Shown piece by piece: positions 13,237-22,433 of a stretch of DNA of 64,000 nucleotides (position 1 is the stretch's first letter; the number at the start of each line of letters is the position of its first letter). A program made the translations under genes and the position numbers. The stretch lies in contig CAJOEM010000010.1 in the NCBI GenBank assembly GCA_905233725.1, forward strand, positions 1 to 64,000. Reading direction: 5' to 3'. This DNA comes from an uncultured Synergistales bacterium. Its GTDB lineage: Bacteria > Synergistota > Synergistia > Synergistales > Aminobacteriaceae. The notes under the pieces were generated by a model. That model saw only the letters and a program-made list of their open reading frames with translations. It had not been told where the DNA came from and searched no databases.

Positions 13237-14016
13237 TTGATTACGATAGCTTTTTGCAATTTAAAGGGCGGAGTCGGAAAGACCACAGCTTGCCAGAATA
13301 TCGCCGTTGCACTGAGATCTCTTGGGAAAAAAGTCGCGGTCGTTGACATGGATCCGCAGAGCAATTTGAGCGCGTCATTTGGTCTGACGTTATCAGCAGT
13401 TGAGCCGCAAGTTTTTGATATATTATCCGGAAATTCAACCTGGGACGACGTGAAAGTAACTCGCGAGGGAATTGATATTATTCCAAGTTCGCTGAATTTG
13501 ATCCTGGTCGAGCTGAATCCAGAAGATCCTGTCTCGAAAGACAATATTCTCAAGAACGTAATATCTTCACTTGACCAGAGCAAATACGATTTCGTGCTGG
13601 TAGATTGTCCGCCGCAGTTGAGCGTATTCACACGCAACGCACTCGCCGCTTGTGAGCACTTGATCGTTCCAATGGATGCTGGATTCTTTAGCTTGATGGG
13701 GCTGAAATTGCTTAACGAAGCATTACCGGTATTTCACGACAGATTGAATATCGACATAAATTTGCTCGGGATATTATTCACGAATTTTGAGCAGAGAATT
13801 TTCATGTACAGAGAAGTTCGCAGTGAAGTCAAGAATTTCTTCGGCAACAAGTTATTCGACAATTTCATTCGCAAAAACGTAGCTCTTGTTGAGGCATCCA
13901 GCTTGGGAAAATCGATTTTCACTTACGCCCCGAAATCCAACGGCGCAGAAGATTACGTGAGAGTTGCCAACGAATTACTCGAGAAACTTGAAGGCGGTGA
14001 ACGTCATGCCAATTAA
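13237..14016 (+). CDS. ParA/Soj-family ATPase
   Basis: Walker-type ATPase of the ParA family that positions DNA or large complexes along the nucleoid. 259 residues. The deviant Walker A is KGGVGKTT (residues 10-17), Walker A' is DMDPQSN (about 38-44), and Walker B is VLVDCPP (about 120-126). The TTG start at 13237 is supported by AGGGGA about 10 bases upstream. No parB gene and no recognisable parS site accompanies it. The next gene overlaps its end by 11 bases and encodes an acidic low-complexity protein, and the gene before it encodes an exported TPR protein. It may therefore be an orphan positioning ATPase rather than the chromosomal Soj. The family call is firm, but the cargo is unknown. 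Confidence 0.88.
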   Translation: MITIAFCNLKGGVGKTTACQNIAVALRSLGKKVAVVDMDPQSNLSASFGLTLSAVEPQVFDILSGNSTWDDVKVTREGIDIIPSSLNLILVELNPEDPVSKDNILKNVISSLDQSKYDFVLVDCPPQLSVFTRNALAACEHLIVPMDAGFFSLMGLKLLNEALPVFHDRLNIDINLLGILFTNFEQRIFMYREVRSEVKNFFGNKLFDNFIRKNVALVEASSLGKSIFTYAPKSNGAEDYVRVANELLEKLEGGERHAN

Positions 14017-15388
14017 AGACAGACCGTCATTGCGCGGTTATTTGTCAACGGGAATTGTGAAAACTGAGGGACAAGTTCAGGAGCAAGAGCGCGTTCAGGA
14101 ACTTGATCGATCCTACGAGCGTAACAGGAAAATTTCCCTGCAAAAACCTGAGCCAAAACCTGAGCCTGAAATCGTCGAGCAAATCGAAAAAATCGAGCAG
14201 CCTGTCGAGGAAGTCGTAAAAATCGAACCAGTCAAAGAACCCGAGGAAATTCTCGAACAAGCCGCACCTGTCGAAGTTGATGTCGAGGAAGTTGCAGTTC
14301 TCGCAGAAGCCGAAGCCGTCGAAGAAGAAATTGTCGATGAACTTGAAGAACCTGAAGAAGCCGACGAGCACGATGAAGTTGCAGAAGAAATTGTGGAAGA
14401 AGCTGCAGATGAAGTCGCCGAAGAACTGAATGAGCCAGAGGAAAAAGTTTTCACGTCGATAACGCCGGAGGAGCCAGAGCCTGCATCGTTTCAAGAACCA
14501 GATGAAATTTTCGTGCCAGAACCAGAGCAAGAGCAGGAAATTGATGTCCCGATTGAAATGTCAGATGCTGATGAATTTGAAACACAGCCTGCTGACGAAA
14601 CTTCTGAGGTTGAGACGACTATTGAGCCTTTTGATGTCGTTGAATTGACGCTCGATGATTCTGACGTAGAAACTGAGCGTGATCTTGACGGACTTGATGA
14701 TGAGCTGTTGGACGAAGAGCCAGAGCAAGAACCCGTAACTGAGATTACTGAGATTGAAGAAGCCGAAGAATCTGAAGAAGCTGAAGAATCTTTCACGGAA
14801 GAACCTGAACCCGAACCCAAGACCGAAATTGCAATCGAAACTGAGACTGAACTCGAACCCGAGACCGAAGTCGCAATCGAAGCTAAACCCGAATCCGAAC
14901 CAGAAGCAGAATCTGAAGCTGAAGAACTCGACGACACTTGGGAAGAATCGGAATCAGAAGCAGACTCCGACCCCGAACCCGCTGACGATTGGCAAGAACC
15001 AGAACCAGAACCCGAACCGGAAGTAAAACCAGAACCAGAACCAGCTCCAACAAATTCAAAACCAGACGATGATTCAAAACCGGATTTCGAACCAACTGGC
15101 GATCCACGAGAAGATCTGATTCAGGAAATTCTGCACTCGTTGTCAGAAGGTGCGCGTAGTGCTTGGGACACGATTTTGCGCGATACGCCGGAGATAACAA
15201 AGAAAACATTTGATATCGATGCGATAATTTCTGATTTTAATAGCTCAGATTCGGACATTGACTCTTTCCTGACGCTGCGAAGGAAATTTGATAATCCGCA
15301 ACCAGTGTTTACAATCCAGGATTTGGACAAGGAATTGTATTGCGTGTTGAAACTCAGCAGCAACAATTCAGTCACGTTTTATGCGTAA
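14006..15388 (+). CDS. Highly acidic Glu/Pro-rich low-complexity protein, ParA partner candidate
   Basis: About 460 residues from ATG 14006. This start overlaps the parA stop by 11 bases, with GGCGGTGA just upstream. A short ordinary N-terminus (MPIKDRPSLRGYLSTGIVKT, residues 1-20) is followed by about 350 residues dominated by Glu, Pro, Val, Ala and Asp with many PEPE and EPEPEPE runs. A normal-looking C-terminal segment of about 90 residues follows (from DPREDLIQEILHSL, then FDIDAIISDF, to VTFYA). No signal peptide or membrane span is seen. The long middle is surely disordered. Overlap with parA suggests the products work together, as disordered adaptors do for other ParA-type ATPases. That is inference. 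Confidence 0.6.
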   Translation: MPIKDRPSLRGYLSTGIVKTEGQVQEQERVQELDRSYERNRKISLQKPEPKPEPEIVEQIEKIEQPVEEVVKIEPVKEPEEILEQAAPVEVDVEEVAVLAEAEAVEEEIVDELEEPEEADEHDEVAEEIVEEAADEVAEELNEPEEKVFTSITPEEPEPASFQEPDEIFVPEPEQEQEIDVPIEMSDADEFETQPADETSEVETTIEPFDVVELTLDDSDVETERDLDGLDDELLDEEPEQEPVTEITEIEEAEESEEAEESFTEEPEPEPKTEIAIETETELEPETEVAIEAKPESEPEAESEAEELDDTWEESESEADSDPEPADDWQEPEPEPEPEVKPEPEPAPTNSKPDDDSKPDFEPTGDPREDLIQEILHSLSEGARSAWDTILRDTPEITKKTFDIDAIISDFNSSDSDIDSFLTLRRKFDNPQPVFTIQDLDKELYCVLKLSSNNSVTFYA

Positions 15389-19691: not shown

Positions 19692-20063
19692 TTACTTGCT
19701 ATCTTCCTTGCTGACCAACTCGATGACAGCCATTTCTGAGCCGTCGCCTTTTCTTGCGCCCAACTTCACGATTCGAGTATAACCGCCCTTGTCGAAACTT
19801 GCATATTTCGGAGCGATTTCCTGGAACAATTTCGTAGCGGCAGCTTTGTGCGGCATTTTCGCGAATACGAGCCTGATGTTTTGCACGCTGGAATTTCTCG
19901 CTTTCGTGATCAATTTTTCGGCAACGCGTCGTAATTCTTTTGCTCTTGTGACAGTCGTAGTGATGCTGCCATTCAGGAACAAACTCGCAGCCATGTTTGC
20001 AAGCATCATTTTTCTGTGGCTGCCGTAGCGTCCCAGGGTTCTATGATCCATTCGATGTCTCAT
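19692..20063 (-). CDS. rplQ: 50S ribosomal protein L17
   Basis: Large-subunit protein near the exit tunnel. 123 residues, full family length. It begins MRHRMDHRTLGRYGSHRK, continues with TTTVTRAKELRRVAEKLI, and ends in the GYTRIVKLGARKGDGSEMAVIEL segment, all typical. AAGGTGAG precedes the ATG. It follows rpoA after 43 bases, the usual order in the alpha operon, and is followed by the ECF genes. Confidence 0.98.
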   Translation of the reverse strand: MRHRMDHRTLGRYGSHRKMMLANMAASLFLNGSITTTVTRAKELRRVAEKLITKARNSSVQNIRLVFAKMPHKAAATKLFQEIAPKYASFDKGGYTRIVKLGARKGDGSEMAVIELVSKEDSK

Positions 20064-20106: not shown

Positions 20107-22011
20107 TTACTCTTGATTTTTCTTTGGACGACCCCGTCGTTTAGGAGCGGCTTCGGATTCTGGCTCTGATTCTGGTTCCGGATTTGGCTCTGGATTTGCA
20201 GACTCAGGCTCAGGTTCGTCGGCATCAGATTTTTTCGGACGACCGCGTTTTGATTTCTTGGCTGTCGGCTCATCGACGAGAGGTTCTTGCTCGGGAATTT
20301 CCGCCATCGGCTGAGCTTCTGGGATTTCCTGAGGCTTGTAATCGTCCATATGCGGTAATTCTTCTGCGGATTTTGCTTCAGTTCCGGATTCAGATTCTGT
20401 CGTTTGCTCGGGAGCTTTCGATTTCGAAGTTCGCTTTGATTTCGATTTCGATTTTGCTTTTAGTTCGGGCGCAGATTCAGATTCCGGCTCAGAATCCGTT
20501 TTAGCAGCTTTCGATTTTGAAGTACGTTTCGATTTCGGTTTGGCTTCGGCTTCAGGTTCAGGTTTTGATTCTGGTTCAGATTCTGCAGCTTTCGATTTTG
20601 AATTTGAAGCACGTTTCGATTTCGATTTTGCTTTCGATTCTGATTCAGGCTCTGCTTCGGCTTCAGATTCTGGTTTTGATTCTGGTCCAGATTCTGCAGC
20701 TTTCGATTTTGAATTTGAAGCACGTTTCGATTTCGGTTTTGCTTTCGATTCTGGCTCAGGCTCAGGCTCTGGCTCTGTTATTTCGACAGGCTCCTGTTCT
20801 TGAGGCTGATCCTGCGTCTGAGAGTCGGGAGCGTCGTCTCCTGATGATTCTGGCTCAAGACCCGAGTCAGGAAACGATTCGAGTTCTGATTCAGATTCGT
20901 CCGCATCGAGTGTTTCGTCAATCCCAGATTCTTCCAGCTCATCGTCATCAAGAGCGGAACTTGTGGATTTCTTACCCTCAGGTAATTTGTAACCCAGATT
21001 TTCGATTTTTGCGACGATTTCATCAAGAGATTTTTTGCCCAAATTCCGAATTTTTAACAGGTCCTCGCGGCTGAACGAGAGCAATTCTCTGACAGTTTTC
21101 ACGCCACCGCGCATCAGGCAATTTTCGCTCCTGATTGAAAGTTCGAGATCATGAATCGGTCTGTTTAGCAACGCTGTCGGGTCTGAATCGTTCTTAGATT
21201 TACTGTCTCCGGATTTGCCTTCAGGCGAAGTTTTCTCTGCAGTTTCGATATTATCTGCGATGTGAGAGAAACATTTCGCGGCAATTTCCGAGGCTTCTTT
21301 CACTGCTGCGTAGGGTTCGACTGCTCCGTTAGTCCAGACTTCGAGAACGAGTCTTTCATAATCCAGACTTTGCCCGACACGAGCTGGAGCTGTTCTGTAA
21401 TTTACCCTGCGAACCGGTGAAAATATCGCGTCCGTCAAAATTGCTTCGACTGGCAGAGAAGAATTTCGTTCACGCTCAGAAGGCAGATAAGCCGCGCCCT
21501 GTTCGACGTAAATGTCCATCGTGAAATGCGCGCTCTCTTCAAGCGTACACAAAACTCCGTTGCCAGTGAATTCAAAATCAGCGTCCTTTGGCATATCGGC
21601 AGCCGTGATAACTCCGGGATTGACATCTCTGGTGAAAAAGTCCTTGGGTAATTTGTCCGTATCGAGCGTTACGATCTTGAATTTTGACTTCGGCGGAAAT
21701 TCGTTTATGACTTTGACCGGAATATGCTTAAGATTTATTAATATCTCGATCACGTCCTCGCGAACTCCTGGTATAGTCGTAAATTCGTGAAGTATGCCGT
21801 CGATTTTCACAGCCGTGACAGCCGCGCCCCTGATTGACGAGAGCAGCAGTCGTCTCAGAGCGTTTCCAATCGTGTCAGCATAGCCGCGACTCAATGGCTC
21901 AAAGACAAATCTGCCGAACGTCTCTGCGGAATTTTCCAGATCAATTTCACCGTTGAAATCTACTGAAGTCTCCTCGGTTTCCTTGAAAACTCTAAAGCTG
22001 GTATTATCCAA
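20107..22011 (-). CDS. rpoA: RNA polymerase alpha subunit with a long Lys/Ser-repeat, AT-hook tail
   Basis: Alpha subunit of RNA polymerase. It nucleates core assembly (N-terminal domain) and touches promoter UP elements and activators (C-terminal domain). Residues 1-250 are a normal alpha-NTD (FEPLSRGYADTIGNALRRLLLSS). Residues 280-345 are a normal alpha-CTD (LSIRSENCL...LGKKSLDEI). Usual proteins stop soon after; this one continues for about 290 residues. Residues 350-425 are acidic. At 425-535 there are four basic KSKR-A/T-S-type repeats separated by Glu/Pro/Ser stretches. Residues 540-582 are an acidic linker, then two AT-hook cores RGRP at 589-592 and 626-629, each flanked by Lys or Arg. 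The frame is continuous with no stop, and rplQ follows 43 bases later. Confidence 0.96.
   Translation of the reverse strand: MDNTSFRVFKETEETSVDFNGEIDLENSAETFGRFVFEPLSRGYADTIGNALRRLLLSSIRGAAVTAVKIDGILHEFTTIPGVREDVIEILINLKHIPVKVINEFPPKSKFKIVTLDTDKLPKDFFTRDVNPGVITAADMPKDADFEFTGNGVLCTLEESAHFTMDIYVEQGAAYLPSERERNSSLPVEAILTDAIFSPVRRVNYRTAPARVGQSLDYERLVLEVWTNGAVEPYAAVKEASEIAAKCFSHIADNIETAEKTSPEGKSGDSKSKNDSDPTALLNRPIHDLELSIRSENCLMRGGVKTVRELLSFSREDLLKIRNLGKKSLDEIVAKIENLGYKLPEGKKSTSSALDDDELEESGIDETLDADESESELESFPDSGLEPESSGDDAPDSQTQDQPQEQEPVEITEPEPEPEPESKAKPKSKRASNSKSKAAESGPESKPESEAEAEPESESKAKSKSKRASNSKSKAAESEPESKPEPEAEAKPKSKRTSKSKAAKTDSEPESESAPELKAKSKSKSKRTSKSKAPEQTTESESGTEAKSAEELPHMDDYKPQEIPEAQPMAEIPEQEPLVDEPTAKKSKRGRPKKSDADEPEPESANPEPNPEPESEPESEAAPKRRGRPKKNQE
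20398..20733 (-). repeat. Imperfect repeats coding KSKR[A/T]S(NSK)SKA in the rpoA tail
   Basis: Four copies of a basic unit (near residues 427, 464, 492 and 524) alternate with Glu/Pro/Ser spacers. The first two units share a nearly identical stretch of about 45 bases, which suggests recent duplication by slippage or recombination. Confidence 0.8.
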
Positions 22012-22034
22012 ATAGATTCCCCCAGTCTTAATAT

Positions 22035-22433
22035 TTACACTCTTCTGCGCTTTGGTGGACGACAGCCGTTGTGCGGGATCGGTGTTGCGTCCTTAATCAA
22101 ATTTATCTGCAAGCCAGCCGCCTGCAAAGATCTAATTGCACTTTCACGTCCTGGTCCCGGACCTTTTACGATAACGTCGATTTCTTTAACGCCCTGATCA
22201 GCTGCACCTTTTGCGACTTGTTGAGCTGCTATTTGTGCTGCGAACGGTGTTGATTTACGCGTGCCTTTGAAGCCGACATTGCCGCCGCTTGCCCAGGTCA
22301 GGATATTTCCAGCCTTGTCCGAAATGCACATGATCGTGTTATTAAAAGTCGAGTAAATATGCGCGACTCCGTAGTTAATATTTTTCTTTTCACGACGTTT
22401 TGTGCGACGCTGCTGAGTAGTTCTCTTAGCCAT
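22035..22433 (-). CDS. rpsK: 30S ribosomal protein S11
   Basis: Platform protein of the small subunit, close to the Shine-Dalgarno helix. 132 residues. Family landmarks: [44 protein letters not shown], and the end [14 protein letters not shown]. It sits between rpsM and rpoA. The gap to rpoA is only 23 bases, so rpsD, which lies here in many bacteria, is absent from this position. Confidence 0.98.

Follow-up and report, generated by a model that had tools for sequence, protein, structure and literature searches.

The window analysed here, the first 64,000 nucleotides of contig CAJOEM010000010.1 of an uncultured Synergistales bacterium, holds on its minus strand the end of a ribosomal-protein operon with the alpha-operon gene order rpsM–rpsK–rpoA–rplQ. 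The rpoA gene, which encodes the alpha subunit of RNA polymerase, has the Shine–Dalgarno-like sequence GGGGGA upstream of its start codon (Table 1). Its product matches the NCBIfam equivalog TIGR02027/NF003519 (318.3 bits against a cut-off of 277), as well as the Pfam families RNA_pol_L/RNA_pol_A_bac (residues 38–245) and RNA_pol_A_CTD (residues 275–337), the latter with a score of 78.9 against a cut-off of 23.8. The motifs R-S-E-N-C-L and N-L-G-K-K-S, which we take to be DNA-contact motifs from the residue roles in E. coli, are retained in the alpha-CTD. With both domains conserved and these motifs kept, the protein resembles ordinary bacterial RpoA, which, however, ends within about 10–30 residues of the CTD; here the frame runs on unbroken past a normal CTD, as the original prediction stated, to give one open frame with a long C-terminal tail. 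Directly preceding rpoA is rpsK, and rpsD was not detected between these two genes here (window 22011-22433), elsewhere in the genus or in another genome of the same family (G098); some other families (G031, G033 and G038) do show a simple S4 motif at that point.

Table 1. Positions of rpoA, its parts and neighbour in the window, and of the extended sigma and beta genes elsewhere in the genome (G000)
Feature	Position	Strand	Basis or remark
rpoA, RNA polymerase alpha subunit, 634 aa	20107..22011	minus	single open frame, TTG start
Alpha N-terminal domain, RNA_pol_L and insert domain, residues 38-245	21277..21900	minus	Pfam; AlphaFold2 pLDDT mostly 70-92
Alpha C-terminal domain, residues 275-337	21001..21189	minus	Pfam, AlphaFold2
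RpoA C-terminal tail, residues 344-634, 291 aa	20110..20982	minus	predicted disordered, charge-segregated
Proximal acidic segment of tail, approximate limits	20752..20982	minus	sequence, charge analysis
Four basic KSKR[AT]S...KSKA modules, acidic spacers between	20410..20768	minus	sequence
DNA-level tandem array under KSKR modules, 111-base unit	20509-20768	minus	
Acidic/neutral linker of tail, approximate limits	20260..20410	minus	sequence
RGRP core of AT-hook 1, residues 589-592, within KKSKRGRPKKSD	20236..20247	minus	
RGRP core of AT-hook 2, residues 626-629, within PKRRGRPKKNQE	20125..20136	minus	
rplQ (L17), intact	19692..20063	minus	starts 43 bases downstream of rpoA
SigA, housekeeping sigma factor	G000:C9:54482-55945		TTG start preceded by AAGGAGGAGG, strong SD
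RpoB, with C-terminal tail	G000:C4 (L252:6379-10560)	minus	read in this genome

Layout of the tail and its AT-hooks

The tail is ordered as first described, from an acidic segment through four KSKR modules and an acidic linker to two RGRP hooks, which sit at the residue numbers first given. Glu (20%), Ser (16%), Lys (13%) and Pro (13%) are prominent in its composition, and the net charge of the whole is −28, so that the label of a 'basic tail' is incomplete. No Pfam or NCBIfam family covers any part of residues 344–634, and a search with the tail against its own genome returned the tail itself as the sole match. The tail is predicted to be intrinsically disordered, with AlphaFold2 giving residues 348–634 a pLDDT of about 40–50 and no secondary structure (a prediction only). 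Such predicted disorder with an adjoining acidic segment is an HMGA-like trait, and the four KSKR modules provide the lysine repeats typical of histone H1-like sequences, which is a likeness of composition and not homology. Open frames on the opposite strand overlap this part of rpoA and are taken as by-products of the repeat.

More than one RGRP core with Lys/Arg flanks is found in the tail, within KKSKRGRPKKSD and PKRRGRPKKNQE, and the pair is not expected by chance; when the tail residues were shuffled 200,000 times, two cores were never obtained and one core appeared 208 times (0.1%). A degenerate pattern for flanked RGRP has five sites in the 1.87-Mb genome, two of which are the tail hooks, while the other three do not encode an RGRP with Lys/Arg flanks. 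The synonymous codons differ between hook 1 and hook 2. The AT_hook profile gave no Pfam row for RpoA at E-values up to 1, but this model is very short and the HMMER filters drop weak matches, so the miss lowers only the claim to profile-based membership. Among the sampled RpoA sequences of the genus AT-hooks occur in this species only, and RGRP flanked by Lys/Arg is also present in a few unrelated proteins from other genomes of the genus. One congener with a short RpoA tail (G095) encodes an unrelated protein (C1:742250) which ends in the AT-hook-like SKRGRPKNNPKQAAEKKPETS and has an N-terminal hydrophobic segment and a coiled-coil-like body.

Distribution and evolution of the tail

Genomes of the phylum were searched in sets of 41 and then 188, with RpoA found in nearly all, and the window's own genus comprises 43 genomes. 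Within this genus an RpoA tail is present in every member with a readable gene end, ranging 15-fold in length from 21 to 324 aa, and wherever readable it sits between the CTD and rplQ. Relatives with an identical alpha-CTD but no tail, together with a truncated product in proteomics, had been put forward as a ground for rejecting the original prediction; the congeners do have tails, at the corresponding position. In the sister genus g24 the tails are shorter and likewise acidic-then-basic, and long tails are absent from the rest of the phylum; outside the genus the RpoA frame normally stops 10–30 residues past the CTD, and none of 80 RpoA loci, 78 of them from other phyla, has a tail of such length.

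The sequences of these tails are variable, but their charge follows a pattern. Of the 21 tails of at least 60 aa, 17 exceed 99% of their own shuffles in charge segregation, and 19 have a C-terminal half that is more positive than the N-terminal half (sign test, p = 0.0002). Tails shorter than 56 aa, which many congeners have, are purely acidic in nearly all cases, and the acidic segment is the sole part common to nearly all members of the genus. In the relatives, H1-like Lys/Ala/Pro/Ser blocks such as KPKKSSSKAKAKAEAPKAEE are seen instead of AT-hooks. The feature shared by the genus is a variable, acidic-then-basic tail, of which the charge layout is conserved and the sequence is not.

Comparison of close pairs gave dN/dS values of 0.16–0.57 in the tail versus 0.08–0.19 in the RpoA core, and the tail indels between such pairs keep the frame; purifying selection acts on the tail, which changes more quickly than the core. 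A tree of the RpoA core requires at least 7 gains or losses of the basic state. Species with longer tails tend to have a faster-evolving core, as measured by branch lengths summed by hand from this tree (rho = 0.44, p = 0.009, uncorrected for relatedness), and tail length is unrelated to genome size (p = 0.24). The basic blocks show only a trend towards better conservation than the spacers, which is not significant (p = 0.12). In one congener (G017) the assembly contains two strain variants of the tail (C331 and C248), which differ by in-frame indels, none of them within a basic block.

The frame does encode the arm described on alpha, and the observation can be widened, as this genome has comparable basic extensions on sigma and beta. 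The housekeeping sigma factor SigA has an N-terminal extension of ~145 residues, in which KIPKKRGRKPGKSIKKK and KVKKKPGRKKKKAD come before an acidic part, and the AT-hook-like cores KKRGRKPGK and KKKPGRKKKK lie within it (PKKRGRKPGKSIKKK...KKKPGRKKKK). RpoB runs ~190 residues past Rpb2 domain 7 (Rpb2_7), with three basic blocks, RGRTKRKRLPRHK, SKSQSKPKPKQKRPFVKK and KTKRAAKKTKSS, and an acidic end. In this genome RpoC has no basic low-complexity tail, and TopA ends in zinc-finger-type repeats with no basic tail. HU is present as a single, tailless copy, and the idea that the RpoA tail compensates for a missing HU was rejected on that basis; HU was not detected in the 83%-complete genome G020.

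SigA extensions are found in other members of the genus as well. The species with the longest RpoA tail (G009) has an N-terminal SigA extension of ~318 residues (C72), which is Lys/Thr/Glu-rich and contains 100 Lys/Arg, the extension in G020 carries VKVKKKRGRKKKN, and SigA is also extended in G096 and G007. An extension of at least 80 aa is present in 5/12 species with an RpoA tail of at least 110 aa versus 0/24 others (Fisher p = 0.002, with cut-offs set once the data had been seen, and with independent pairs too few for tree correction). By rank correlation across 36 species, G009 included, SigA extension and RpoA tail length are not significantly associated (rho = 0.27, p = 0.11; before the addition of G009, rho = 0.21, p = 0.23).

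Candidate roles of the tail

CarD, a myxobacterial RNA-polymerase-binding factor, has a similar layout, with a disordered acidic segment followed by RGRP AT-hooks and joined to a component of the transcription apparatus. The HMGA-like domain of CarD consists of an acidic segment and four RGRP hooks, is disordered and binds the A/T-rich minor groove; histone H1, or the disordered tail of H1, can take its place (PMC4374960, PMC8156234). This exchangeability fits, by analogy, the situation in the genus studied here, where hooks occur in one species and the RpoA tails of its relatives are H1-like. The two systems differ in that CarD is a separate factor, which binds beta through its CarD_CdnL domain, whereas here the arm belongs to RpoA. 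The CarD_CdnL_TRCF domain (PF02559) is absent from RpoA, and the lone CarD_TRCF match in this genome is a 1036-aa open frame, read as Mfd/TRCF.

Lysine-repeat, H1-like extensions are known from Streptomyces TopA, HrdB, HupS/HupB and Ku (PMC7398561) and from Pseudomonas AlgP/PhaF (PMC9239181). Like the RpoA tails they are terminal, disordered and variable in length, with repeats rich in Lys/Ala/Pro/Ser, and HrdB is itself a sigma factor; unlike them, TopA and HU are unextended here, and acidic blocks alternate with the basic ones. AT-hooks, H1-like tails, acidic disordered tails and lysine repeats on the sigma factor HrdB and on TopA are therefore already known parts. What appears new, judged from sequence, is a putatively DNA-binding and predicted-disordered tail on a core polymerase subunit, along with sigma and beta extensions in the same genome; in the literature searched, which consisted of open-licence papers, no RpoA or RpoB with such extensions or AT-hooks was found.

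Considering these observations together, the reading that we favour, at a probability of roughly 0.5, is that the tail is a lineage-specific disordered arm of RpoA that would add non-sequence-specific, A/T-preferring DNA contacts beside the alpha-CTD. That the tail is encoded in frame, constrained and acidic-then-basic across the genus is observed; from this and the analogies above we infer DNA binding, a preference for A/T and an effect on transcription, and the arm probably serves to contact DNA. Binding, whether around promoters or across the nucleoid as a whole, would fall to the basic blocks and hooks; the acidic segment nearest the CTD may hold these basic parts off the enzyme and prevent overly tight binding. 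Such arms could raise the local DNA affinity of the polymerase, moderated by the acidic parts, with the outcome that the enzyme is kept near A/T-rich DNA and rebinds faster or attains higher promoter occupancy. As the alpha-CTD retains R-S-E-N-C and G-K-K-S, the arm would supplement UP-element binding and not replace it. If the arms do bind DNA, alpha would have two ways to read A/T-rich minor grooves, and the genus, with its range of tail lengths and its different tail types, would lend itself to studying the influence of AT-hooks and tail charge on polymerase affinity, search and nucleoid association.

The open frame, the occurrence of tails throughout the genus, the selection on the tail, its charge layout and predicted disorder, the hook pair, the SigA and RpoB extensions, the tailless state of HU, TopA and RpoC, the cut-off form of the SigA–RpoA association and the CarD precedent all support a DNA-binding arm. 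It is weakened by the net charge of −28, by the restriction of hooks to one species, by the short acidic tails of many congeners and by basic blocks that are not significantly better conserved than spacers, as well as by the non-significant SigA–RpoA rank correlation, the post hoc cut-offs and an RpoB sequence read from a single genome. Of the original prediction of an extra A/T-tract and H1-like binding arm, the in-frame, predicted-disordered tail with hook- and H1-like composition has survived, while the AT-hooks proved particular to this species. A bolder proposal, which we offer tentatively and which is rather less probable than DNA contacts by the RpoA arm, is that the holoenzyme itself does the work of a nucleoid-binding protein. 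Disordered arms, both acidic and basic and bearing H1-like or AT-hook motifs, would have been added to each of alpha, sigma-A and beta, the two motif forms being interchangeable and arising repeatedly within one genus, and together the arms would keep the polymerase bound to A/T-rich DNA or gathered in clusters at the nucleoid.

A serious rival, if on balance an unlikely one, is that replication slippage has expanded a low-complexity tail, soluble and harmless enough to be under weak constraint, with little or no specific function and with hooks that are incidental to a Lys/Arg/Pro/Gly repeat. The DNA-level tandem repeats, the 15-fold variation in length, the pace of tail evolution relative to the core, the correlation of tail length with core evolution and the repeated gain or loss of the basic state are all in keeping with slippage, but it does not readily account for a tail dN/dS well under 1, a regular and segregated acidic-to-basic order, a hook pair in excess of shuffle expectation, or basic extensions that are present on sigma and beta and missing from HU, TopA and RpoC.

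Somewhat less probable again is a role centred on the acidic part, which would compete with nucleic acid on the polymerase and so promote recycling, or would form a sticky polyampholyte that clusters polymerase, with the basic blocks tuning it by binding the acidic part. The near-universal acidic segment favours such a role, and there is a precedent in the delta subunit of Bacillus, where a folded domain is joined to an acidic disordered region of charge −47 by which nucleic acids are displaced (PMC7749165). A delta-like role would be possible for the RpoA tail, as the search of this genome gave no delta-type HARE-HTH protein; in both cases a polymerase subunit has a long, strongly charged tail that is disordered, here by prediction. 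Delta is, however, a separate subunit with a HARE-HTH domain, and its tail is essentially acidic and has no AT-hooks. An acidic function would leave unexplained the AT-hooks and H1-like blocks of long tails and the basic extensions on sigma and beta, and the tail is attached to the mobile CTD, away from the main channel.

It is very improbable that the tail is an artefact of misassembly or of a frameshift joining rpoA to another gene, or that the protein never carries it. Although the assembly is fragmented (57 contigs), independent genomes of the genus have the tail at the same site before rplQ with different DNA and the frame kept, the genome holds no second copy of it, and frameshift or fusion to a separate downstream gene was rejected on the frame-keeping indels and the intact rplQ.

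Elsewhere in the window, a further protein with acidic low-complexity sequence is encoded on the plus strand (13964-15388), directly after the gene for a ParA-type ATPase (13237-14016). It is 474 aa long, consists mostly of Glu/Pro acidic repeats and has no Pfam match, and it is a possible partner of the ParA protein.
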